64,000 nt of DNA from Gammaproteobacteria bacterium (GTDB taxonomy: Bacteria; Pseudomonadota; Gammaproteobacteria; HyVt-429). A program made the translations under genes and the position numbers. Positions 91 through 15,532 of this stretch are shown piece by piece; positions within the stretch are counted from its first letter, which is position 1, and each line of letters begins with the position of its first letter. The stretch is taken from contig JAADGI010000029.1 in assembly GCA_013152415.1 (NCBI GenBank), positions 1-64,000 of the forward strand, given 5' to 3'. The notes beneath the pieces are model-generated. The model was not told the DNA's origin. It saw only the letters and a program-made list of their open reading frames with translations, and ran no database searches.

Positions 91-1704
91 CTTAGTAAGT
101 CCCGCCGGTCCGCCTGTCACTATAAAAAGAGAACCTTCCGTCGCAACGGACTCTCGTCCCTCAGTAAGTCACGCCCCTATGGTGAAAAGTACCAACACTA
201 TTGGAGCGCTGTCGCAACGGACTCTCGTCCCTCAGTAAGTCACGCCCTTAAAAGGAGAAAGAAAATGCTGATGAAAAGAACGTCGCAACGGACTCTCGTC
301 CCTTAGTAAGTCCCGCCCCCGACTCCGTGACGAGTGGCAATTGGGGCGTGTCGCAACGGACTCTCGTCCCTTAGTAAGTCCCGCCTACAAAATGCCGCCA
401 TCAAAATGTTCAACCCTCGGTCGCAACGGACTCTCGTCCCTTAGTAAGTCCCGCCCATATCTTTGCCTCCATATGTGCCAGCTATTGCAGTCGCAACGGA
501 CTCTCGTCCCTTAGTAAGTCCCGCCTTCTTTTCGCAGTTCATTCGTGAAAGAGTAGTAGAGTCGCAACGGACTCTCGTCCCTTAGTAAGTCCCGCCCTAG
601 AAGAAGTGCTTCCCAGAAACTAGCGGACTTAGTCGCAACGGACTCTCGTCCCTTAGTAAGTCCCGCCTTTAGGAGGGCATATCATGAAGGTAATTAAAGG
701 GTCGCAACGGACTCTCGTCCCTTAGTAAGTCCCGCCAGAAGTTACGCAAAGGCCAGTATTTTTACTGCGGTCGCAACGGACTCTCGTCCCTTAGTAAGTC
801 CCGCCAACAATACTGTCCTCATACATTCCCCTATGTCCGTCGCAACGGACTCTCGTCCCTTAGTAAGTCCCGCCTCCTCGAGCATGACGTACCTGGCCTT
901 GGGCAGCAGTCGCAACGGACTCTCGTCCCTTAGTAAGTCCCGCCACAAATGAGAGTCTTCATTATCGTAATTGGTGGGTCGCAACGGACTCTCGTCCCTT
1001 AGTAAGTCCCGCCGCTCGTCGGTTTCGTAATCGCTCCTATTGTGAGTGTCGCAACGGACTCTCGTCCCTTAGTAAGTCCCGCCGGAACGTTCAAAGTACA
1101 TTTAGCACCATGAAGTAGGTCGCAACGGACTCTCGTCCCTTAGTAAGTCCCGCCTGCTCTAACTATCATTGCGTTTGGCGCGGAAGTCGCAACGGACTCT
1201 CGTCCCTTAGTAAGTCCCGCCGCAAAGGACGGGCAGTTGTTCTCGTCTCATGAGTCGCAACGGACTCTCGTCCCTTAGTAAGTCCCGCCAATAATCTATT
1301 GCAAGGAGTCCTTTGATGAAAGTCGCAACGGACTCTCGTCCCTTAGTAAGTCCCGCCAATATTATGTACTAGACAATATTCTTAGATAAAAGTCGCAACG
1401 GACTCTCGTCCCTTAGTAAGTCCCGCCATTGTTGCCGGCCCGAAGTGCGTGCCGCTTTGGTCGCAACGGACTCTCGTCCCTTAGTAAGTCCCGCCCCTGT
1501 AAAGCACTCAGAAAGATGTCTCTTGATGGTCGCAACGGACTCTCGTCCCTTAGTAAGTCCCGCCGAAACTATCGAAATCATTGATTTTCTACAGGAGAGT
1601 CGCAACGGACTCTCGTCCCTTAGTAAGTCCCGCCGATTCCTGAAAAGATAATCAAAATCGCTTTTAGTGTCGCAACGGACTCTCGTCCCTTAGTAAGTCC
1701 CGCC
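91..1704 (-). CRISPR. CRISPR array: 23 full 36-bp repeats (140-175 through 1669-1704), 22 spacers of 31-35 bp, plus a truncated 16-bp trailer repeat at 91-106
   Basis: Repeat on + strand: GTCGCAACGGACTCTCGTCCCTTAGTAAGTCCCGCC; starts at 140,211,282,350,420,490,561,632,701,770,839,909,978,1048,1119,1186,1254,1322,1392,1460,1529,1599,1669. Degenerate repeats at the left end place the leader on the right, so transcription is most likely on the - strand (crRNA repeat GGCGGGACTTACTAAGGGACGAGAGTCCGTTGCGAC). Confidence 0.98.
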
Positions 1705-1865: not shown

Positions 1866-2153
1866 TTACACCACGATGACCGCTGGATAGTCCATTATTT
1901 CTGACCCATCCAGGCTGAAGGACTCGCGCAGTGTGTTGCCGTTCATGCGATAGAAGCGGATGTTGGCGGGGTCCTCGTAGCGTCGGCACAGGCCATTTAA
2001 GCGCCCACGCAGTCGCCGCATCTGGGTGGTGTTGCGCATGGCCAGTTCAAAGACGGAGTGTTGTACGCGAAAACCATGCCTCATTAACTCCTTTACCACC
2101 CGGTAGCGCAGGCGGTCGTGATGGACATCGAAACAGGCCAAGTAGTATTGCAT
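1866..2153 (-). CDS. cas2: CRISPR-associated endoribonuclease Cas2
   Basis: 95 aa; MQYYLACFDVHHDRLRYRVVKELMRHGFRVQHSVFELAM pattern typical of Cas2; adjacent to cas1 fusion and array. Confidence 0.93.
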   Translation of the reverse strand: MQYYLACFDVHHDRLRYRVVKELMRHGFRVQHSVFELAMRNTTQMRRLRGRLNGLCRRYEDPANIRFYRMNGNTLRESFSLDGSEIMDYPAVIVV

Positions 2154-2156
2154 GGT

Positions 2157-5081
2157 TTATCTCTCCCTATAAGGCCGGAATGCACTTTCTTCCCGCAACC
2201 ATGCGATCAACGAACGATTCTGCCGGTGCAGGTGGCCGTGCAGGCCCCGTGGACGGTCGTCGCCCCAGGCTGTGACCCCGGCAACAAAGCGTTCTTGCAA
2301 CACGCGCAGGTAATCGCGCAAGGCGGTCCGTTCCATTTCGCAACGCCCACCGCGCATGGAGAAGTTGTCGGGGCTAATCATGCGCTTGCGGATGATGTGC
2401 AAGGCGGTGCGCTCTACCAAGTGGCGGAAAGGCTCCATCATGTCCGAGGCCAAGGCGGCATGACCGGCACGGCGCTGATGGTAAACGCCCAGGGCCGACA
2501 GCAGACCGTCTACGCGCAGAGCGGCATCGGTGTGGGCGTAGAGAATGCTGTAGCCAAGATCAAGCAGGACGTTGAATGGGTCGAGGGCGGGGTGCCGTTG
2601 ACGCCGTTTAAAGTTCCATTCAGACCCAAGAACGGTACGGATACCGGCGAAAAACTCACGGGTCGCCTCGCCCTCTACGCCGTTCAACTCGGCGATGTCG
2701 GCGACCTCCAGGGCCTTGTCCGCAGCCCGCTTGAGCCGGGGACGGGCGGCCTGGGCGTCTAATGGCAGGCGGCGCAACACCTCGCGAAGATTGCGGATGC
2801 GGGCGGCCACCAGTTCCCGGGCCGGTTCCAGTCCGTGGGCTGTCTCCAGCAAGCGGTCTAATTGTAAGCGCCACAGGGCCAACCGGCCTGCCTCGTGGGC
2901 GGCGGAGGTCGCCACACCAAGGTACTCACCCGAACGGCGGACGAAATGTACCGGCACGCCACGGCGCATGGCCCCGCGCAGTGCCGGGGTGGTGATATGC
3001 TGCGGCCCGACCAGAACCAGGGACTCGAGGGTGTCCACAGGACGGTCCAGAAGTATCTCGCCCTCCCGGGAGACCCGCAGATGACCCTCGCTGATAGCGA
3101 CTGTCGATGGCTTGCCGGTAACGGCCACCAGGGCGCCCACCTCCTCTACCCCAACCAGCGTGGGTGCTGCCGGTGTGTGCCCCACCAGGCGCTCTACAAG
3201 TTGCTCCACGCGTTCCGCCTTCTCCACCGGGTTGAGTGCCAAACGGGTCTCACAATTGTGCCTGTTTGGAAGGGGCTTGGCTGTGGTTGGCTGTGCCGGT
3301 GGATCATCCGTGACTTCGCCTTGTTTGAAGTACAGACCGAGATAACGAAAGCCCTGCTCAAAATCGGTCTCGGCAGTTTTGTCTTCGCGCAACATCAGCT
3401 TTAGCTCGGCCAGGGAACGGCGTACTTCGGCCTCGGCGTCTTCCAGGCGGGTCGCGTCTTTACAGAGCACGACAAAGTCGTCGGCATAGCGGATCATCTT
3501 GAAGTTTTCCGCCGCCAGGTCGCGGTCGAAATCGTCCAGGACAAGATTTGACAGCAGGGGGCTGAGCGGTGACCCCTGTGGCAACCCACGTAAACGGGTG
3601 AGTTCACGGCCCTCGGCGATCAGCGGGGCGCGCATCCAGGCAAGACAATGGTCCACGACCGGGTCATGCCGGTACAGGGCGCGCAGCCGCACTTCGATGT
3701 CGTGCCAATCGACACTGGTAAAAAAATCCTCAATGTCGGACTCGAAGACGTAACAATAGCCCGCCTCCCAGGCCCGGCGAATGGCCTCGGCGGCACTGTG
3801 GCGCGAGTGGCCCCGACGGTAGCCGTGGCTGTTGCGGTGAAAGTATTTGTTGAGCGCGGGGGCGAGCACCTGGACCACGGCACGTTGGGCAACGCGCTCG
3901 GCAAAGAGGGGCACCGCCAACATGCGCTGGCCACCGTTCTTTTTGGGCAGGGATCGCAGATGCAGCGAATCGACCTGGCTGTCTCCCGGCCGCAGCCGTG
4001 CCGTGAGGTCCTCTTTGTGCTTGTCCGTCAGCAGGCGTGGTTCCCGTTTGTTACGGGTGGCGGCGATGCGCCAAGCCTGCTCCAGATTATAGTCGAGGGC
4101 GGCCCGTTGCAGCAGCGAGGCAGCGGGTCTCAAGAGGGGCACGGCGTTGGCGGTCTCACCGTCGACCGTCTCCAACCGGTAGCGGCCCAGACCGAAGGCG
4201 GGTTGTTCACCCATGCCCAGGTGCTGGCCCAACACCAGGCAACCGATATGAAATGTGGACAGGTCAGGCAACGGTGGGAACTGCAGTTCTCCCAACAGAC
4301 CGCTCAGGTGCTTCCAACGGGCACCGCTCTTGTAGCTGTCCTCGACCCAAAAGACGCGGCATTCGCTAAAGTTACAAGCAGCGGCCTTTGGGGTCGGCTT
4401 GGGTTCCTCATGGCCATGGTGCTGGATCAACGCGCGCAGGGCCTCGACATTACGGTGCAACAAAAAATCTGCATCCAGGTCGCCGGGGTTACTGCAATAG
4501 CGGGGCTTGCCGTCGGTCGACTCCCGTTGCTCCCGTACCGCTGCGGGCAGCAACATGCGCAGGGGCGAGGTCCAGCGCCATACCAGTGGGTGTTCATGAA
4601 TATAGGCCTGCCACAGGTTCAGTTCGTGTTGGAAGCGCTCCCCGTCGTAGGAAATGAACCGTTCCGGATCGAAGTCGTCGCCCGTGGCCAGCCGATCACG
4701 AATAGACACCAGCCGCAGATTACCGCGAAAGGGATCATTGCGCCGTTTGTCCCGCTGGGCGGAGGCAGGTAAACCCTCCAGTTTTTGAATAAGCACCCGC
4801 AACAACGGCAGACCAGGCTCGAACGCGGTGATGCCGAACCGGTAACGCTCACCGGAACGGTAAAACACCCGCCCGTCCTCAGCGCTCTCCACCAACAACT
4901 TACCGGCATAACTCACCCCCCGGGCGTCAATCAGGGTACGGATAAAGCCCGTCAACTGCCCCCGGTGAAAAAACGGTAGACGGGTGGACTCGGTAAACTC
5001 AAGCGTGATCTCGAGGCAATAGAAGGGAAGGATTTTGGGGAGCCAGTCGGTCCGAAGTTTCGCGCTGTTGCCTGACATCAA
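2157..5081 (-). CDS. Cas6-reverse transcriptase-Cas1 fusion protein
   Basis: 974 aa. N-terminal RAMP/Cas6-like part ending in glycine-rich loop GMGEQPAFGLGRYRL (~4190-4230); group II intron-like RT with SDIEDFFTSVDW, GLPQGSPLSPLLSNL and YADD (3477-3488); C-terminal Cas1 (RPVDTLESLVLVGPQHITTPALRGAMRRGVPVHFV, NGVEGEATREFF, GVYHQRRAGHAALASDMMEPFR). Confidence 0.93.
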   Translation of the reverse strand: MMSGNSAKLRTDWLPKILPFYCLEITLEFTESTRLPFFHRGQLTGFIRTLIDARGVSYAGKLLVESAEDGRVFYRSGERYRFGITAFEPGLPLLRVLIQKLEGLPASAQRDKRRNDPFRGNLRLVSIRDRLATGDDFDPERFISYDGERFQHELNLWQAYIHEHPLVWRWTSPLRMLLPAAVREQRESTDGKPRYCSNPGDLDADFLLHRNVEALRALIQHHGHEEPKPTPKAAACNFSECRVFWVEDSYKSGARWKHLSGLLGELQFPPLPDLSTFHIGCLVLGQHLGMGEQPAFGLGRYRLETVDGETANAVPLLRPAASLLQRAALDYNLEQAWRIAATRNKREPRLLTDKHKEDLTARLRPGDSQVDSLHLRSLPKKNGGQRMLAVPLFAERVAQRAVVQVLAPALNKYFHRNSHGYRRGHSRHSAAEAIRRAWEAGYCYVFESDIEDFFTSVDWHDIEVRLRALYRHDPVVDHCLAWMRAPLIAEGRELTRLRGLPQGSPLSPLLSNLVLDDFDRDLAAENFKMIRYADDFVVLCKDATRLEDAEAEVRRSLAELKLMLREDKTAETDFEQGFRYLGLYFKQGEVTDDPPAQPTTAKPLPNRHNCETRLALNPVEKAERVEQLVERLVGHTPAAPTLVGVEEVGALVAVTGKPSTVAISEGHLRVSREGEILLDRPVDTLESLVLVGPQHITTPALRGAMRRGVPVHFVRRSGEYLGVATSAAHEAGRLALWRLQLDRLLETAHGLEPARELVAARIRNLREVLRRLPLDAQAARPRLKRAADKALEVADIAELNGVEGEATREFFAGIRTVLGSEWNFKRRQRHPALDPFNVLLDLGYSILYAHTDAALRVDGLLSALGVYHQRRAGHAALASDMMEPFRHLVERTALHIIRKRMISPDNFSMRGGRCEMERTALRDYLRVLQERFVAGVTAWGDDRPRGLHGHLHRQNRSLIAWLREESAFRPYRER

Positions 5082-8000
5082 TCGGGAGAATCGATTTCTG
5101 AGATAGGCTGTATCAGGGTAATTCTCTTTTTGACTTCAATGTAGAGAACTTCAATGTTTAGCGTAGCGTCCTTATCTCTCACAAACTCTTTCGCTTTGCC
5201 TGTTAATTCTTTCTCTTTTCCACCGATCTTCCATTTTTCCTCTGTAGAATCAAATGAAAGCCATCCGATGTTAGCGCCCCCTCTGCCTTGATGGAATGAG
5301 AAATAAGAAGGAACACAACCATCCGAATACAATTTCTCCGGGTTAGGCAGTTTATTATTAACCACATGCCAAGCGAAGAGCTCACGTTCAGACCAGGCAC
5401 GTATTAGAGGATCGTTACTGTACAAGGCATAACGCTGTGCCTTTGTCAGCGGATAGGTAATTAACTCATTTTCATCTCGTTGTTTCCCGATCTCTTGCAA
5501 GCATCGCAGTGTGCCGGGATCAACCAGTCTGCCGAGGTCATTGGGGTCTGATATAAAATCGCTGATAGATTTATCTTCCATGGCGACACCGTTTTCCTGT
5601 GTAAAACAGTCCTTTATATTTCGCTCTTTGATGCACTTTACCTCGACCCTCACAGACCCTAAGCCCAGGGGCTTGCCCAAGCCCAGTTTGTGCAGAAACT
5701 CACCTCCCGGCGCGATAGCGGTCAGCAGCAGCTTCATTTCATGATCGTTCAGGTTGTAGTAATGGATAGCAAACGTGAACGCCTGATTTCTTACAATTGG
5801 TTGGCATTTGGTTTTCTGTCCCTTGTTGTTCCCGATATCCAACGTTGCATAGCTATTCGGACTGACATCGTCCGGGCATTGACGCAGGTATTCCTTGCGG
5901 CCATTGGGAACAAGATGGCTACCTTCCTTGTGAAAATAAAGGTATTCCGATGGTGGTTCTGGCGAGGATAGAATCTTGATCGTCACTTGTTCTCTGCGCT
6001 CTGGATCATTGTTATTATCAATGAATTTCGCATCGGTAAAACGCAGACGGGAAGCAAGGTTCCTTTGCTTGCCTGGGGCGTTACTCGTATCTTCTTCCAC
6101 CACGCCCAGCAGCACCTCCGCTGGCGTCAGCCAATCCACACCACGTTTGATGCTGCCCCAAGGCAACAAGGCTTTACTTACGAAATTAAACGCGTCATGG
6201 GATGTTAAATAGTAAAAGGGTTTTCGCCAGATGGATGAGGGGCTAATTTCCGAGACTATAGCGTTGTCCGTTTTGTAGAAAATAGTTTTGCCCACCAGTT
6301 TTTCCATTGCAGGTTTTTCTATTATGCCTGGTGTTTTCAGGATATTTTCATATGTGGCAATGACATCAGGCGGCACATCGAGATCATTTGCTTCTCCTTC
6401 TGCCTGGATTTGCCATTGCTCCCCGTTTTTTATGAGCACCCCCTTACGCGTTAATCGTTCATTTTGAGATTTTCGTACACTGAAATAACGATTCTCCAAC
6501 ACCCGCAAACTGGACTGGCTCAGCGTTTCGATGACATTACCGATCATGCCCCGCAGGCTGTTGGCGGGGAAGGCGACGTAACCTGCGTGGCGGTAGGCAT
6601 GAACCGTGGTTTCTTTCTCCTTATCCGGTTGTTCATGCTCATTGCCCACCAGGGTGTCGGTGACGGTTGTCAATGTGCAAGCAATTATTCCGGTATGCCG
6701 TTCCGGGATATAGAGATCGTGGCGAATTCCTTTTTCTTTGATGTCATCATACGCCGGGCAATTACCGTCATTCCATAGTGCCTTGACCGGCACGAAGGCG
6801 TAGGGGTTCAGTTGTTTGCCATTGGCCCGATTGATCGTGGGTGTTCCATCCTCCACGACCGAAGGAATTTTATGTTCCGGCTCGCCACCGCAATCATCTG
6901 CTGTGGTCTTCTTTGTGGCTTCCTGTTTACTATTTTTGTAGTCTTCATCGATTGTCTGCTTGAGTGCCTCAACCCACTCAGAAGGATTATTGGCCACTTC
7001 TGGCCCGAATCCATTTGAGATTACAGTGGCGAGATCGATCTTTTTGCCCTTCTCGTCCTTTTCGACAAGTTTTAACAAACCATAGCCCTTGGCCTTACCC
7101 CAACCGACCCAGAAATGGCCATCGGTGATCTCGCGCAGGGCAAGGTAGAGCAGGCCACACTGCCAATCCTCCCATTTATCCTTTTTGTGGAGAATCAGGC
7201 CGCCACCCTCAAGCTTGCTCCCCGGTGGGATGGCGCATGCACAATAGAGCGCCCCGTCCTTCACACCCCCGGTAAAACGGTCGATGGCAATGAAGAACTG
7301 CGTGTGGACATCGTCACCCTTATAGACGGGGGCCTTCCATTGGACCCGGCTTGCCTGGTTTGTGTCACCAAAAATCTTGCTAACCAACGGGTTGGCCTCT
7401 TCGACCGCCTTGTTGGGATCGTCGATTCGATTGTTGATCAGAGTGGCGGCAATGCGGGTAGCGATGTCACGCAAGGCGCCGGTGAGGCTTTCCGGCGGCA
7501 AAGTCGCCTTCTGGTCTGCATTTCGGTAACACACCAAATCGGGTAGACCCTGATCCTCTTTCTCATGGTTTCCCTTCCGTTTCTTTGGTGCCTGGCCCGG
7601 ATCGTGGACGAGGACGGGCTGCTGGGTGATGAGTGTTAATGGAACGTCCAGCAACTGTTTTTCAATAGAAGCAATACTTACATCAACAGAGTCACCGAAT
7701 AACACGTCGATATCTCTCTTATCATTATCCTTCACAAACCAGTTATGGATTGCGTCGGTGGAGATGCTCCGGTAACTGCATTTCTCAACCTCGAGCACAC
7801 CCCAGGACTTGGTCTTTTTCGCACCCAGGCCGTGGGTCAGATCGCCATCCCAACGTTTCAGAGCCTCAATAAGACCGTCGATTTCGCTCTCATCCACCCA
7901 GTCCATTTCCAGTTCGGCGGTAAAGCGCGCACCCTGCGGATAGACCTCGTGATAAAATAGGCCCTTCCCGTCCTGGGTACCCGTCTCTGGTCTGATTTTG

Positions 8001-8443
8001 ATACCGCTGCGCAGCCCCGTCATGCGATCCGGATGCCAATAACTGACTAGCGTGGGGTCGCAACCATCATAACGCGCATCCATGACCCGGACGCAGCCTC
8101 CCCGGTGTTCTCCGGAGCCGATATCGTCCGGGCCAAAAAGTTCTTTTCGGCAATCGTTATTGCGCGTCAATCCTCGGCGCAGGAATCCACGCAAGGTGCT
8201 GCCAGGCAGGACGAGCCGCTCCGACGGTCGTGTGTAACAGCATTGGTATGTGCCATTTTCTTTCAGATTTTCTTTGCTCGCAATATCTCTTTCCGATCCA
8301 TAAATTTTGCAACGTTCCGCTTCGATCTTGACCGCCTCACGCCCGTCGCCGACATGAACATCGGTCTTACAAACGAGTTCGACAATGAACTGCACACGAT
8401 AATATCGTCTCTCGTGCTTTTCGCTGGTTCTGGTCTCGGGCAT
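5078..8443 (-). CDS. Type III RAMP fusion protein with apparently three Cas7/Csm3-like units (C-terminal unit resembling the TIGR03986 RAMP family)
   Basis: ~1121 aa from the ATG at 8443 (ORF track extends to 8500). Three RAMP-like signatures: GSTLRGFLRRGLTR...GLGAKKTKSWG; PESLTGALRD...FIAIDRFTGGVKDGALY...WGKAKGYGLLKL; PANSLRGMIGNVIE...LGLGKPLGLGSVRVEV. ATGA overlap with the Cas6-RT-Cas1 gene. Confidence 0.85.
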   Translation of the reverse strand: MPETRTSEKHERRYYRVQFIVELVCKTDVHVGDGREAVKIEAERCKIYGSERDIASKENLKENGTYQCCYTRPSERLVLPGSTLRGFLRRGLTRNNDCRKELFGPDDIGSGEHRGGCVRVMDARYDGCDPTLVSYWHPDRMTGLRSGIKIRPETGTQDGKGLFYHEVYPQGARFTAELEMDWVDESEIDGLIEALKRWDGDLTHGLGAKKTKSWGVLEVEKCSYRSISTDAIHNWFVKDNDKRDIDVLFGDSVDVSIASIEKQLLDVPLTLITQQPVLVHDPGQAPKKRKGNHEKEDQGLPDLVCYRNADQKATLPPESLTGALRDIATRIAATLINNRIDDPNKAVEEANPLVSKIFGDTNQASRVQWKAPVYKGDDVHTQFFIAIDRFTGGVKDGALYCACAIPPGSKLEGGGLILHKKDKWEDWQCGLLYLALREITDGHFWVGWGKAKGYGLLKLVEKDEKGKKIDLATVISNGFGPEVANNPSEWVEALKQTIDEDYKNSKQEATKKTTADDCGGEPEHKIPSVVEDGTPTINRANGKQLNPYAFVPVKALWNDGNCPAYDDIKEKGIRHDLYIPERHTGIIACTLTTVTDTLVGNEHEQPDKEKETTVHAYRHAGYVAFPANSLRGMIGNVIETLSQSSLRVLENRYFSVRKSQNERLTRKGVLIKNGEQWQIQAEGEANDLDVPPDVIATYENILKTPGIIEKPAMEKLVGKTIFYKTDNAIVSEISPSSIWRKPFYYLTSHDAFNFVSKALLPWGSIKRGVDWLTPAEVLLGVVEEDTSNAPGKQRNLASRLRFTDAKFIDNNNDPERREQVTIKILSSPEPPSEYLYFHKEGSHLVPNGRKEYLRQCPDDVSPNSYATLDIGNNKGQKTKCQPIVRNQAFTFAIHYYNLNDHEMKLLLTAIAPGGEFLHKLGLGKPLGLGSVRVEVKCIKERNIKDCFTQENGVAMEDKSISDFISDPNDLGRLVDPGTLRCLQEIGKQRDENELITYPLTKAQRYALYSNDPLIRAWSERELFAWHVVNNKLPNPEKLYSDGCVPSYFSFHQGRGGANIGWLSFDSTEEKWKIGGKEKELTGKAKEFVRDKDATLNIEVLYIEVKKRITLIQPISEIDSPD

Positions 8444-8447
8444 CCTG

Positions 8448-10301
8448 TTACTCCTCAATCGGTGGTTGCCAGCTTTCATGTAGCTCGAGATTGACGGCAA
8501 TCTCGCCCCAACCGTTCTCCCTGATCCAGGGATTCAGTTCCCAGGGTTTGGGTCTCGAATCTTCATCTTCCATACCAGAGGCATCCGTTACCTCTGAATC
8601 TTTATCTTTCATGCCGGGGGCACCCATGACTTGAGGCAGACCGAGACGCTGCCATTCCCTGATCTTCTCTTCGGCCTTTTCTCTGTCTTTGATATCGAAA
8701 ACAAACACGCTGCCGGCATCGGTAAATACCTGTGTCTGGTAGAGTGGTTTTGAGCATTTACCGTAACGTTTCCACCAATAGTCGCCGCCCATGAGTGTCT
8801 GCCGGGCGTAGTAATGACTGAGCCTGAGGCTTTCATTAGATAGTTCATCCCAGATGCATCGGTAGCATTTTAATAGCTCACCCCCACCACCCGTTTGCGG
8901 GATATCCTGGATATCCTCCACATTAAACAAACGGGCCGGGGTTTGCAGCGCGATCACTATTTGATTTTTCTCGATGGGACGTTCCTGAACCGCAAAATCG
9001 AATCCACCCGATACGATCTCGACAATAGCGGGTGTTTTGGTCTTGCCCAATGGCAGGAACGACTGGCCTTTTGCAATCTCAGCAAGAATCTTGAGAAATT
9101 CTCTGACATCGGAATCAGTCACGCCGTTGCCGTATTTGGGGAAATCGATATTGCACAGCCAGACCTGCTCGGGGTCCGGCTTGACCATCTCGACCGCGAA
9201 CAGACCTTTGTCCTCCGCTGCACGTTTATTCAGATCGTGTTTATTACGCACGACCAACATACGCTCGATCTCACCCGGCCAACCGAGTTCACTACGGGCG
9301 CTGTTGAGATGCCTTTGCTTCCAGTCAGGCTGGAAGGCGGGTGCCACCTGTTTGATCAGCCCAGGCTCCTCCATATATGCAACATCACGCAGGTCACCAC
9401 CGGCGAATACCAACGACAGGGGAGGCACCACTGGGCGACAGGTGGCCTGGTGGTTTACAGACAAGGCATGAGTGACCCGCACAGCGTCGAAAAGAGGTTT
9501 GATTTGTTGCCATTGGGATTGTTTTTTCGCAACACGGGCAATCACCGCCTTAATCGCCGCACCCGGGATCGAATCGCTGGAAACGAGGGCATTACTCTTC
9601 TTCGGCCCGTGAAGGGCAAAACAAAATGGCCATAGGGGCCGCAAGCGCAACCCTACCCGGCCAGTTTGAATAATGTGCGCGATGGTCTCTTTGTCCAATT
9701 CACGACTGGCGCTGGTAAGCACTGCAGGTGCGGCGGTATCAGTGATGTTCACTTCATGCATCCTGCCCAATCCAACCCCCTTTTCCCCACCCAGTGCCGG
9801 TGTCATGAGCAGTCCCTTACGAATCCATTCCTTCAATTCTTTATCGGGCTTGTCATCCAACAACAGTATGTGTCCGGAAAAGATTAACGGCTTTTCCGGG
9901 GCATTATCACCACTGCCGCGCTCCTTGTTGTCCAACACCTTTGCAACCTGCAGCATCTTGCTTCCCACCGACCGGGTCCCGTCGTCAATTTTGATGCGGA
10001 TGCGCTCATCCGGTACCGTCTCCCCGTCGAGCGTCCAGAAGGGCTCGAAGATCAGACAACCGCGCTGATCGAGAGTATCGTCACTCTCTCCCAGCCACTT
10101 TTTGATATCGACTGTGGCCCCCAGCTTGTTCAGGAGCATCCAATTCTCTTTGAGATTGCCCCGTATCAAGCTTCCCGGCAGCGCGTAGCGTCCCTGAGGG
10201 TCACGGAACATATCGGCATCAACACCAAACGGAAGCGCGCCACTCTGCCGACTGATCACCGGCGGCAGGATCGATAACGTTACGCGGTACCACATGCTCA
10301 T
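8448..10301 (-). CDS. Type III RAMP protein; N-terminal Cas7-like unit plus a possible Cas5/Csx10-like second half
   Basis: 617 aa. N-term YALPGSLIRGNLKENW...GGEKGVGLGRMHEV typical RAMP; second half VGLRLRPLWPF...SDSIPGAAIKAVIARV...LPLGKTKTPA suggests another RAMP fold. 4-bp overlap with cas10. Confidence 0.75.
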   Translation of the reverse strand: MSMWYRVTLSILPPVISRQSGALPFGVDADMFRDPQGRYALPGSLIRGNLKENWMLLNKLGATVDIKKWLGESDDTLDQRGCLIFEPFWTLDGETVPDERIRIKIDDGTRSVGSKMLQVAKVLDNKERGSGDNAPEKPLIFSGHILLLDDKPDKELKEWIRKGLLMTPALGGEKGVGLGRMHEVNITDTAAPAVLTSASRELDKETIAHIIQTGRVGLRLRPLWPFCFALHGPKKSNALVSSDSIPGAAIKAVIARVAKKQSQWQQIKPLFDAVRVTHALSVNHQATCRPVVPPLSLVFAGGDLRDVAYMEEPGLIKQVAPAFQPDWKQRHLNSARSELGWPGEIERMLVVRNKHDLNKRAAEDKGLFAVEMVKPDPEQVWLCNIDFPKYGNGVTDSDVREFLKILAEIAKGQSFLPLGKTKTPAIVEIVSGGFDFAVQERPIEKNQIVIALQTPARLFNVEDIQDIPQTGGGGELLKCYRCIWDELSNESLRLSHYYARQTLMGGDYWWKRYGKCSKPLYQTQVFTDAGSVFVFDIKDREKAEEKIREWQRLGLPQVMGAPGMKDKDSEVTDASGMEDEDSRPKPWELNPWIRENGWGEIAVNLELHESWQPPIEE

Positions 10302-11947
10302 GGTTTTCCCCTTTTAAGGGGATTCTGGAGGTACTCCCAATATTCCAACGCAAACAACCATGGCTGTAATGCACGAATAGCACCGTAATACTCTTCGTGC
10401 TCCTGCTGCACCGAACTGGACAAGGCCGAGTCCTGAAGAGATGCTTTGTCGATTAGCGGAAAAATATCGCTTACAATCTTTCCAATATCTTCAATCTTTT
10501 CAATCTCTCTGGAATCCCCAACCTCTTCCATACACGTCATTTTTGGCACCTTGGTGGCGGTTCTTTCATAGCTGTTGTAAAACTTCACCACGTCCCGCCG
10601 AAATGCACCATGGATGTTGATCCCGGCAATCTTTTCTGAAAAACTGTCGAGCTTATACATATCCTTGTTATCCTTGTCATCCTCCATATTTTCTGCATAT
10701 AGCGGTTTGAACGGCAAGATATGGGCGCCGCATTTTTCGTAACGGCGTTTCCAGTGGCGGCTGATACGTTCGGTAGGGTAGTCCTCCGATTCGAGCAGAA
10801 GCGGGAAATAGAGATCAACGTTGCGCGAAAACATCTTGGCGTGTTCGGCCAGCTCCCGGGCCAACCTGGAAACCCGTTGAATCGGAGTATTGTGGGAACA
10901 GAAGACAAGCCCACCCGCGTGGGTGAGGGAGACACCGTTGATTTCCAACCCTTCCATTTCTTGGTAGAAAAGATGCAGTGTCGCAAACCCCGCCCACGCA
11001 GGAACAACCAATAGAATCTCATCACCTCCCCAAAGCAGCACTTCCAGCCGTAATGCTTCACCATTTTTCATGGTCTCCTTTGACTTAAAACTATTCACTA
11101 ACGCCTTAAGAAGGCCGGTACGTTTCTCTCTCAGTTTATTGTCAAACTCCATGACTTTATTCAGGCTGAGTTCAGCCTGGTGCTTGTTGAAATGGTTTCC
11201 GTCGAAGTAGAGCACCGCGATCTTGTCCTTGCAGGCGGCCACCTCCGGCGACTCTTTTAAACTCCATTCGCTCAGATCTTTCAAATCTTTTGTGAATTTG
11301 TTTACATCCGGGGGGCAACCCATTTCCCGATTGATAAAACTATTTTTTTGATCGGCACCGTATTGATAACGAGCATGGACCGATCTAGATAGACATTCTT
11401 CTTTTTTATCTATTTTTTTCTTGCTCGACGCTGGGCGGCACCCTTCTAGGAAGCAGGCAGGAGTCTTTTCCGGGGAATCGTCATGTGCCGCCTCAAGATC
11501 ACCAAAATATATCGACGGTATACGCATTTGCTGCAATCGGTTCTTGGCAAGAAGCACCCGACGAGAAACTACCTCGGCTGTCGACGGTTCCATTTCCACC
11601 GCCGAAACAACAAAACCAATTTGTGGCAGCACTTTTCCCAGATTTTCACCCAACGCTGACTTGCCGGAACCATTTAGATGGCCCCGTAGCGTCCCCTCCA
11701 GTTCGGTTTTATTATTCTCATTCGCACGAAATCGGAACAAACCCGTCGAACCACCACTTCGGATCTCCTCAACCTCAGAAATACCTTTAGTGGATTTGAT
11801 CACTTTGTTGACCGCATGCACCGCCTCACGCATGGCAATGCTACCTCCACGGCGTACACTTAGCTGGCCGGTATCTTCAATCACCGAATCAATATTTACG
11901 GCCTCGACTTGTAGCAACCAAGCTGGTTCTGGAATCGTCAAGCACAT
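10298..11947 (-). CDS. cas10: Cas10-like large subunit, compact, no recognisable HD domain, palm motif GGDE
   Basis: 549 aa; KIAVLYFDGNHFNKHQ and LLWGGDEILLVVPAW (GGDE at 11018-11029), cysteine motif CFLEGCRPA and SRSVHARYQYG typical of Cas10 palm/zinc region; flanked by RAMP genes. Confidence 0.85.
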   Translation of the reverse strand: MCLTIPEPAWLLQVEAVNIDSVIEDTGQLSVRRGGSIAMREAVHAVNKVIKSTKGISEVEEIRSGGSTGLFRFRANENNKTELEGTLRGHLNGSGKSALGENLGKVLPQIGFVVSAVEMEPSTAEVVSRRVLLAKNRLQQMRIPSIYFGDLEAAHDDSPEKTPACFLEGCRPASSKKKIDKKEECLSRSVHARYQYGADQKNSFINREMGCPPDVNKFTKDLKDLSEWSLKESPEVAACKDKIAVLYFDGNHFNKHQAELSLNKVMEFDNKLREKRTGLLKALVNSFKSKETMKNGEALRLEVLLWGGDEILLVVPAWAGFATLHLFYQEMEGLEINGVSLTHAGGLVFCSHNTPIQRVSRLARELAEHAKMFSRNVDLYFPLLLESEDYPTERISRHWKRRYEKCGAHILPFKPLYAENMEDDKDNKDMYKLDSFSEKIAGINIHGAFRRDVVKFYNSYERTATKVPKMTCMEEVGDSREIEKIEDIGKIVSDIFPLIDKASLQDSALSSSVQQEHEEYYGAIRALQPWLFALEYWEYLQNPLKRGKP

Positions 11948-11950
11948 GGT

Positions 11951-14767
11951 TCAATCCTCATATCGTTTGTCCAGGCCGGTACAACGTTCAGGCAGGAACA
12001 GTTTCTTAAATAGAATCAAGCCAGCCAGGCTCACTATGACAAACAGTAACGTGGTTATCCCGATCAGCAATTTGCTATCAAAACCGACTAACCCGAGGAC
12101 GACGAAACAAACAAGAATTATGACTTGATACAGGGTCAGGAACAAAAGGTAGTGCAGCTTGATATTCCCCAGCCCAGGCATTCGCATAAGGTAGTGAAGC
12201 TTGGCATTCCCCAGCCCAAGCATTCGTATAAAGAGAAATATTACCGTAGTTGTCAGCAGCATTGAGAAAACAAACTGGACCATGAACGCCAGTGCGTTGG
12301 TAATGGGCTCCAGTGAACACACTGCCGGTTTGAACCAAGACAGCACATCCCGCAAAACCAGAAATGCTTGCTTGGTGAGGGATATGAGGTAGGCCGCAAC
12401 CGGCATACCGATAATCTCTTTTATCGCATCCACGCTCAGCAGACCAACAAAAACTGCGGCAAATGTAATGACCAAACCTACACAGGTCAGGCGATCCCGC
12501 ACTTTGCACTTTTCATAGTCTTCTGTCTTTTCGATCTCCTCCTTGACGATGTTATGCGACTCTTTAAACCCCATCGCCCGGCTCTGGAGCTCATAAATTT
12601 CCTTACCTTGCTGCTGCTCGGTGACCTCATGGAACCAATAGCGATTGGTAAATTCCATGAATTCGTCACGCAACTTACCAAGGATGTCATGTTTAGTTTT
12701 GCCTTCACGCGACCCACCCAACTCCTGCTTTGGGGTTTTCGACCCTTCTTTGTCAGTGGAAGAGGGGGTGGCTTCGCTGATCTTGAATTCATATCCGCTG
12801 AATAGTGATTGGTAAAACAGATTCAACACCGTCATCCGACCATAAATGTGTGGGACATGGATCGGGGCAATCCGCTCGCGCGCCTCCCTGGAGAGCCCCA
12901 TGTAAACATGCGAATGATCGGTGAAACCGTGTAAGCTTCCGAGCTCCTCCCAACGCCGATAAACCTGGTACTTTTGTTGCTCCTGGCAAAATTGCCGACT
13001 GTAGGCAAACTCTCCCGGACTCGTATCCTTTTGTCGATCAACATGCAAGGCGATATGGTGTATACGATTGAACTCCTGTTTTGCCCATTGATTCGATGGA
13101 ACAGGCCCTGCCAATGCATAGGCAACATTGACAAACATCCTGTCATTGCGGGATTCATCCATCAATCGTTCTCTTGCTCGATCAATGTCCTCTGAGTCCT
13201 GATAAAATTTCGAAAGCAGGTGCGTGATGACGGAATTGAAATCCTCGATCTTAAATGACGTCGCGGGTGGATCACTTGAAAGGTCCTTAATCTGCATATC
13301 GCAGATTTTTTTCTCCTTCCACTGCTCGAGAAAGCTGGGATAGAGGATGCGCACCATTTGTGTAAAGTTGAGCCATCTTTCCAACTGCACACATTCTGGA
13401 TTTTGTTTACGTTCAAATAAATCGTGCCACCAGTTGGTCTGATCCGCACATTTGGGATCATCCCAGGAATTGTTTACCGATACGGGCATTTCAATCCGGA
13501 ATGCCAGGAGATCATGTTTTAAATGGTGACGATACAAGGAAACATCTTTAACCTCGGCACCATCAAATGGTGGTTTGCATTGGGTATCAGCATCACACTG
13601 GATGAGCTTTAGTGTGATATTATCTAATGATTCATGGGGTAACGAATATTCCTCTATGGATTTGATACCGCTTTCGGGACTCTCACCCATATGAAAAATC
13701 TGTTCCCGCAGCCGTGGTGAGAAATAGCGCACAACCTGGGCCTTGATCGCATCATCCTTGTATTCTTCATAGGGCCGAATGCCTTCCGGCTCCAATTTTG
13801 GGAACGCATATTTTCCGATTGGCGTATTCTTGTACTCTTTCGCAACACCTTTAGTGCCTGGCGCAATACCTTTGATTTCTGGGCGTTTATCACCGACATA
13901 CCCTAGCGAACAATAGAAGGTGGCGGAATAATAGCGCAGGGGACGGCCGGACCAGAGTACGGTAGCAAGCATATCGCTCACCAAATCATTGACACTCCCA
14001 GGGTCGTAGCTTAAGAAGTTGATCTCAAATTCCAACGTATACCGCCCCAGCCTAAAAAACATCAGGCACCGTGAGCGCCAATACTCGGATACAAATAACG
14101 TCGAAAAATAATCTACAAAACGTGGCGCACCGATAAACGTAACGCGCTTTACTTTGTTCAGATCATCCACATCATTGCTGCCTACAAAACCAAGCAGTAA
14201 GGCTTGTTTCAGACGGGGTAACTCTCCCCTGGCAAGACACTCTGTATAACCATCCCAACCATCACGGTTGGGACGCAGGGTGAGTAGTTTCTTCTCTTCC
14301 CACTCGCCAAGTGTCAATTTGGTCAGCTTCAGGTCGTCCAGATCGACGTACGGGACCTTCTCAATGGAACCAAATTGTTTGCAAAAAAACTCCTCGGATT
14401 TCTCCCAGTCCTGTCCCCGTTCAGCAAGCCCCAGCCAATAGTCGCGCTCAAAGGCAGCCAGGGTCTGCTGCTCTTCGGATAAGGTCTTGCCCAACGCGAC
14501 GGCTGCACGCTCCAGTAGTCCTGCGCCCTGCTTTCGCAGATAACGGCGAAGGTGGCATTTTGGGTGATCGATGTTGGATAAGACGCCGGGGAGAAGAGTT
14601 TCACCGGCTATCTCAAATTTAGGTGTGTCTGCTTCCAGAAATGTGGCGCGGGGTGGTTCACCTGTATCGAGGAATTTAATTGATTCACGGATCGCCTCGT
14701 ACAACCGGCTTCCCTTGTTCTTCTGTTGTTCTGATTCTCCCCCCATCCCTATGCTCCTGTCCATCAC
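11951..14767 (-). CDS. Large CRISPR-associated membrane protein; soluble N-terminal ~700 aa plus about four C-terminal transmembrane segments (possible divergent CorA-like effector)
   Basis: 938 aa; hydrophobic stretches LTCVGLVITFAAVFVGLLSV, ALAFMVQFVFSMLLTTTVIFLFI, LLFLTLYQVIILVCFVVLGLVGF, LLIGITTLLFVIVSLAGLILF preceded by charged coiled-coil RYWFHEVTEQQQGKEIYELQ; first gene of the cas operon, 3 bp from cas10. Confidence 0.7.
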   Translation of the reverse strand: MMDRSIGMGGESEQQKNKGSRLYEAIRESIKFLDTGEPPRATFLEADTPKFEIAGETLLPGVLSNIDHPKCHLRRYLRKQGAGLLERAAVALGKTLSEEQQTLAAFERDYWLGLAERGQDWEKSEEFFCKQFGSIEKVPYVDLDDLKLTKLTLGEWEEKKLLTLRPNRDGWDGYTECLARGELPRLKQALLLGFVGSNDVDDLNKVKRVTFIGAPRFVDYFSTLFVSEYWRSRCLMFFRLGRYTLEFEINFLSYDPGSVNDLVSDMLATVLWSGRPLRYYSATFYCSLGYVGDKRPEIKGIAPGTKGVAKEYKNTPIGKYAFPKLEPEGIRPYEEYKDDAIKAQVVRYFSPRLREQIFHMGESPESGIKSIEEYSLPHESLDNITLKLIQCDADTQCKPPFDGAEVKDVSLYRHHLKHDLLAFRIEMPVSVNNSWDDPKCADQTNWWHDLFERKQNPECVQLERWLNFTQMVRILYPSFLEQWKEKKICDMQIKDLSSDPPATSFKIEDFNSVITHLLSKFYQDSEDIDRARERLMDESRNDRMFVNVAYALAGPVPSNQWAKQEFNRIHHIALHVDRQKDTSPGEFAYSRQFCQEQQKYQVYRRWEELGSLHGFTDHSHVYMGLSREARERIAPIHVPHIYGRMTVLNLFYQSLFSGYEFKISEATPSSTDKEGSKTPKQELGGSREGKTKHDILGKLRDEFMEFTNRYWFHEVTEQQQGKEIYELQSRAMGFKESHNIVKEEIEKTEDYEKCKVRDRLTCVGLVITFAAVFVGLLSVDAIKEIIGMPVAAYLISLTKQAFLVLRDVLSWFKPAVCSLEPITNALAFMVQFVFSMLLTTTVIFLFIRMLGLGNAKLHYLMRMPGLGNIKLHYLLFLTLYQVIILVCFVVLGLVGFDSKLLIGITTLLFVIVSLAGLILFKKLFLPERCTGLDKRYED
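12149..12232. repeat. 42-bp imperfect tandem duplication inside the 938-aa membrane protein gene
   Basis: gtagtgcagcttgatattccccagcccaggcattcgcataag / gtagtgaagcttggcattccccagcccaagcattcgtataaa. Confidence 0.9.
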
Positions 14768-15532
14768 CAGTCTCTGCGGGCGTCACTTCTGGCTCCTCGC
14801 TCCGACCATACAATACAACGATTGTCATGACGCAAACACGTCAAGTTTCGAATCTGTAGAGGGCACTCTGTTATCAATTCTCACCCATTAGGACAAGAAC
14901 AGGGATATTTACTGGTTTTAGCGTTCCCTCACCCACCCTTGACCACATCTACCGACCGTTGCCTTTGATCGTGTCGATACCTCAATTCTGAGGATACTGG
15001 TGTAGGTGGTATTGATTTCCCCTGTGCACCTCAGGCCTCAACCCTGTGCTACCCGGCGTGAATAAAAGTCCAGTGGGTCGAGGTCGTCCTCCCAGACATG
15101 GGCTGGACCTTATCTGTGATAGCACGACGGACTCAAAAATACAATCACCACAGCAAAAACAGGGAATTCATTCCACCTTTTGCCCGTTTAACTGCTATCC
15201 CGTTAACCCCTCTCCCAGCAGGTTGGGGTGAGGGAGTCGAGGCAACCCATATATTTTATATATTCCCTCATCCTGGCCTTCTCCCGGAGGGAGAAGGTGT
15301 AAGTTCAATTTACAGGGGCGAGGGAGTCAAGATAACCCATTTGATTTTACTGGTAGGTTTTATCTGGACTCCGGCCTTCGCTGGAGTGACGGTGACTTTT
15401 CACACAGCCTTGAAAACGGGAATCCAGTAATGCATTGATTTTATTACTCTAGATTCCGGCTCTCCACTTCGCTGCGGAATGACGAATTAATCAGATGTTC
15501 CTTAGCATTAACTGTGAAGCCACAACCGCAGC

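Follow-up and report, generated by a model that had tools for sequence, protein, structure and literature searches.

A III-D2-like CRISPR locus with a triple Cas7 fusion, and related loci in which the same Cas7 genes are separate

The locus described here occupies the beginning of a 64,000-nucleotide stretch of gammaproteobacterial DNA (contig JAADGI010000029.1), which we refer to in its entirety as the window. On the minus strand, a gene for a CorA-like protein is followed by genes for Cas10, a 617-aa RAMP protein, Cas7x3, Cas6-RT-Cas1 and Cas2, and then by a CRISPR array.

91..1704, minus strand: CRISPR array, 23 repeats of 36 nt plus one truncated, spacers of 31-35 nt
1866..2153, minus strand: Cas2, 95 aa
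2157..5081, minus strand: Cas6-RT-Cas1 fusion, 974 aa (RT motif YADD at 3477-3488)
5078..8443, minus strand: cas7x3, triple Cas7 fusion (Cas7-2x + Cas7-insertion/TIGR03986), 1121 aa
5081..5608, minus strand: Cas7x3 C-terminal extension (residues 946-1121), modelled with low confidence
5609..6808, minus strand: Cas7 unit 3, Cas7-insertion type with a short insertion, residues 546-945
6809..6928, minus strand: Cas7x3 junction, from the end of the Cas7-2x part to the NPYAFVPV start of the Cas7-insertion part, residues 506-545
7049..7660, minus strand: Cas7 unit 2, residues ~262-465
7739..8404, minus strand: Cas7 unit 1, residues ~14-235
8448..10301, minus strand: Cas7/Cas5(Csx10)-like protein, 617 aa, homologue of chain C of PDB entry 9wxh
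10298..11947, minus strand: Cas10, 549 aa (GGDE at 11018-11029, DGN at 11195-11203)
11951..14767, minus strand: CorA-like membrane effector, 938 aa (PADLOC CorA)

The cas7x3 gene is a single open frame running from 8443 down to 5078, which encodes 1121 aa from the ATG used in an earlier note on this DNA (an alternative TTG start, 57 nt upstream, would give 1140 aa). That note had described three successive RAMP-like units in one polypeptide, each with an N-terminal P(G/E/A)xSL(R/T)G motif and a glycine-rich GxxKxxGxG element. The three units and the three N-terminal motifs are borne out, since the Pfam RAMPs family (PF03787) matches three stretches of the protein (E 2e-37) and the pattern P..[ST]LxG occurs exactly three times (PGSTLRG at P80, PPESLTG at P316 and PANSLRG at P626), which happened in 0 of 20,000 shuffles of the protein. 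The glycine element fares less evenly, its strict form being limited to units 2 and 3 (GWGKAKGYG at 447 and GLGKPLGLG at 921) while that of unit 1 is degenerate (GAKKTKSWG at 207). Cas7x3 also scores 217.8 bits against the type III RAMP family TIGR03986, above the NCBIfam cut-off of 161.35.

For fold prediction, Cas7x3 was modelled as two pieces, residues 1-510 (from 12 sequences) and 501-1121 (from 10 sequences), because full-length alignments with unfused relatives were misregistered, the units being homologous to one another. The first model (mean pLDDT 68.5) superposes from residue 10 to 502 on Cas7-2x of the III-Dv system, which is itself a double Cas7 fold (Z 16.4, rmsd 5.6, 411 aligned), and Foldseek matched it to 8s9t_D with an E of 1.7e-19. 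The second, whose mean pLDDT is 50.1 with core blocks at 70-88, matches the III-Dv Cas7-insertion protein 8s9t_E (Z 16.1, 328 aligned, rmsd 15.3), Cas7-11 8d1v over a range that ends in the C-terminal Cas7 of the latter (Z 16.1, 237 aligned, rmsd 3.8) and also single Csm3/Cas7 chains. By these models the chain is made of 2 + 1 Cas7 folds, where unit 3, given a pLDDT of only ~50 for its piece, leans on clear sequence similarity plus a low-confidence partial model. Cas7x3 is thus confirmed as a real single chain with three Cas7/RAMP folds (the model of the third being of low confidence), and not the one or two that the earlier note had named as grounds for dropping its reading.

The neighbouring genes complete the picture of a type III system. 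Cas10 is retained beside the triple Cas7, as had been claimed, with its GGDE motif in place, and an HD domain was reported in it by none of the profile libraries searched. In the CorA-like protein, the PADLOC profile PDLC01174 matches residues 334-819 (E 6.6e-69), the N-terminal ~250 aa match no family and are not seen in the relatives compared, and there are additional hydrophobic segments at the C-terminus; this 938-aa form may be a fusion or reflect an unusual start. Within its gene, between membrane segments, a 42-nt unit is tandemly duplicated (12143-12226, 88% identical), and the intergenic DNA upstream of the operon has two direct repeats 90 nt apart that resemble extragenic repeats (15225-15347). 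No gene for Cas11 or Csx19 was identified at the locus. Nor was a SAM-AMP degrading enzyme (NrN, DEDD or lyase) recognised in the interval from CorA to Cas10, either here or in the loci L074, L081 and L079; III-D loci with CorA have been noted to be devoid of the known enzymes of this kind (PMC12669027). The Cas6-RT-Cas1 protein agrees in its three-part architecture with known fusions (PMC5513706), with a Pfam CRISPR_Cas6 match at its N-terminus that, at 16.0 bits, is under the cut-off of 25. As for the array, its repeat reads GGCGGGACTTACTAAGGGACGAGAGTCCGTTGCGAC on the presumed transcribed strand, and the two array-distal repeats are degenerate, which is consistent with transcription from the cas2 side. 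The same repeat, with 1-2 mismatches, is found at 208647-208754 of contig C16 of genome G000, where the array may continue unless a second array exists. Its spacers gave zero matches to phage records.

How does this locus compare with known systems? The III-D2 variant, in which Cas7x3 occurs with Cas10 and Cas6 retained, has been proposed as an intermediate towards III-E (PMC8730458, PMC12669027). The window shares with it the three Cas7 domains fused in one protein and a Cas10 with GGDE, and may differ from it in the joining of Cas6 to RT-Cas1 and in having a CorA effector. Furthermore, the PDB entries 9wxh, 9wxi and 9wxj (Cas10, a RAMP protein and a TIGR03986 RAMP protein) contain homologues of all three effector proteins of the window: Cas7x3 matches the fused 1235-aa TIGR03986 chain of 9wxh (chain D; E 6.3e-55), the 617-aa protein E 9.6e-42 and Cas10 E 1.3e-36. 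This complex, which has the same triple fusion at about 25-32% identity, was compared by sequence only, being absent from our fold library (entries to April 2026), and no paper describing the three entries was found in the literature searched. In view of the III-D2 description and these homologues, the arrangement is already known in kind, and the earlier idea of an "independent or intermediate route" to backbone consolidation has to be divided: the intermediate has been published as III-D2, and independence gets some support relative to the 9wxh fusion (see below). The III-Dv system of Synechocystis shares the Cas7-2x and Cas7-insertion folds, a fusion of Cas7-Cas5 type and Cas10. However, its Cas7-2x and Cas7-insertion are two proteins instead of one chain, it requires Csx19, and it has three active aspartates where two are predicted in the window. 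Several Cas7 units per chain are also found in Cas7-11e (gRAMP) of III-E and Cas7-11i of III-I, but III-E combines four Cas7 units with Cas11 and lacks Cas10, and III-I has a fused Cas11 and a Cas10 without polymerase domain. Membership of either family was rejected, the scores being 134.3 bits for Cas7-11e (NCBIfam cut-off 700, and the locus has Cas10) and 41.8 bits for Cas7-11i (cut-off 800).

What is new comes from the relatives, which were gathered by profile searches of whole genomes and then of the loci fetched from them. Eleven loci (L039-L042 and L074-L080) have the genes for Cas10, a ~600-aa RAMP protein, Cas7-2x (~450-595 aa) and Cas7-insertion in the same order, and in all of them the last two are separate genes, often overlapping by a few bases (4 nt in L040) and intact except in L075, truncated at a contig end, and L039, apparently broken. 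A CorA gene was detected at eight of these loci; a full or almost full Cas6-RT-Cas1 is seen at five (L040, L074, L076, L077 and L078) and a partial one in L041 and L079, and contig ends may hide others. In L039, Cas10 and the RAMP gene are separated by a pair of almost identical ORFs of ~300 aa (12181-14035; start of the proteins MKNNHKAKYINPFTDFGFKKLFGE), which appear to resemble Rpn-type PD-(D/E)XK nuclease proteins. Another relative, L043, starts at a contig end, so that the fusion state of its Cas7 genes is not readable; L057 (genome G745) was considered as its missing upstream part and rejected, since it belongs to another system of III-D type with its own Cas7 double unit. Searches of genome and viral contigs with peptide patterns, taken from the single protein or from a two-row alignment, returned no relatives, which is not evidence of absence since the patterns fell in poorly conserved stretches, and tblastn gave zero phage matches and one distant plasmid match.

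The relatives also make it possible to follow the residues that would cut RNA. In III-Dv, three active sites have been reported, formed by D26 of Cas7-Cas5-Cas11 and by D33 and D246 of Cas7-2x, with none in Cas7-insertion (PMC11026444). The check that the earlier note had proposed, a catalytic Asp in each Cas7 unit, succeeds for unit 2 and fails for the other two. Unit 2 has a catalytic-type Asp, D302 (window 7538-7540), which aligns, to within one position, with D654 of DiCas7-11, in which D429 and D654 are the catalytic residues. Unit 1 has Q67 at the catalytic position and zero Asp across residues 54-76, while unit 3 has T612 and no Asp, as in all Cas7-insertion relatives examined. (The catalytic loops differ in length, so that paired residues may be off by about one position, with no effect on the absence of Asp from unit 1.) Outside Cas7x3, the 617-aa protein has D28 (window 10218-10220), the equivalent of which is an Asp in 13 of 13 sets of proteins. 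Across these sets the Cas7-2x part is left with 0 to 2 of its catalytic Asp, the catalytic position being Asn in unit 1 of 7/13 and Asp in unit 2 of 6/13, and GGDE and DGN of Cas10 are unchanged in all 13; in 9wxh, by alignment, unit 1 has N and unit 2 has V in place of the Asp. As judged from these alignments, a catalytic Asp survives in the window's effector only in unit 2 of Cas7x3 and in the 617-aa protein, and the capacity of the fusion to cut RNA seems to be partly lost. With D28 and D302 alone and the geometry of III-Dv (cut positions 43, 37 and 31), one would expect two RNA cuts spaced by 12 nt, a predicted pattern that is new here together with that of the aspartates.

Is the fusion genuine, and is it old? 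That a sequencing error merged two overlapping genes is conceivable to the extent that a single indel could do so where the Cas7 genes of relatives overlap slightly, but we regard this as extremely improbable and rejected it. The join is clean: the Cas7-2x part runs to ~510, about 35 residues without homologue follow and separate it from NPYAFVPV at 546, all in one unchanged frame with stops in both other frames across the junction, and another fused homologue exists as a solved protein (9wxh). Alternatively, the fusion could be old and common to all III-D2-like Cas7x3, the unfused relatives having arisen by gene fission, in favour of which the window protein and 9wxh chain D have identical domain order and are similar over most of their length (E 6e-55). 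The trees speak against it. Both single-gene and concatenated trees place 9wxh with the unfused L042 and L039, and the window with the other loci, and constraining the two fusions to a common branch costs 157 lnL units and is rejected (AU p 2e-43), in trees where no more than two tips are fused, a number of deep nodes are weak, the 9wxh rows come from printed (incomplete) alignments and a contig end hides the fusion state of L043. Since a common branch is rejected, two independent fusions cost fewer steps than one fusion with some three or more fissions, and more distant outgroup loci are unfused too. An ancient shared fusion therefore appears unlikely, and the window fusion is best read as separate in origin from that of 9wxh, which, with the related loci where Cas7-2x and Cas7-insertion are unfused, is the other new element here.

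A third question is whether slicing matters at all in this clade, or whether the complex is mainly an RNA-triggered alarm, from Cas10 to CorA, in which slicing is biologically unimportant. The repeated loss of the Asp of units 1 and 2 next to an invariant GGDE favours such a pure sensor, as does the finding that type III systems end Cas10 signalling by cleaving and releasing the target (PMC11026444), so that lost cutting sites would be expected to prolong the signal. Yet none of the sets lacks the Asp of the 617-aa type protein, and the window has retained D302, so at least some cutting is probably selected. We thus hold the purely signalling complex to be a serious but less probable alternative to a signalling complex with limited slicing.

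The reading that we prefer, with a probability of roughly 0.8, is that of a type III-D system, III-D2-like by architecture, in which Cas7-2x and Cas7-insertion have been fused into Cas7x3 and which combines RNA-guided signalling from Cas10 to CorA with limited slicing. Starting from what was computed (the three folds, the locus, the relatives, the residues and the tree), we infer a stoichiometry of one Cas7x3, one 617-aa Cas7/Cas5-like subunit and one Cas10, which would assemble on a crRNA of fixed length cut by the Cas6 domain of Cas6-RT-Cas1. Once foreign RNA is bound, the GGDE palm of Cas10 (a motif present in Cas10 proteins whose loci have a known effector; PMC11229360) would become active and produce a presumptive nucleotide messenger, which would open the CorA-like membrane effector. 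Cleavage of the target RNA would be confined to the sites of D28 and D302, the middle site being presumably dead, and new spacers could possibly be acquired from RNA by reverse transcription, of which RT-Cas1 proteins are capable (PMC5513706, PMC11014452).

What this might mean for III-D systems can be put only tentatively: the same two adjacent genes may have given rise to triple-Cas7 fusions on more than one occasion, and the cutting sites of the CorA clade may be decaying under selection for alarm over slicer. An advantage of the window is that it provides a second such fusion, a Cas7x3 sampled beside unfused relatives of the same genes, so that the step from several proteins to one chain could be studied as a before-and-after pair. 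The two-site pattern with its 12-nt spacing is a testable prediction, and backbone fusion may be connected with the loss of slicing and with membrane signalling.
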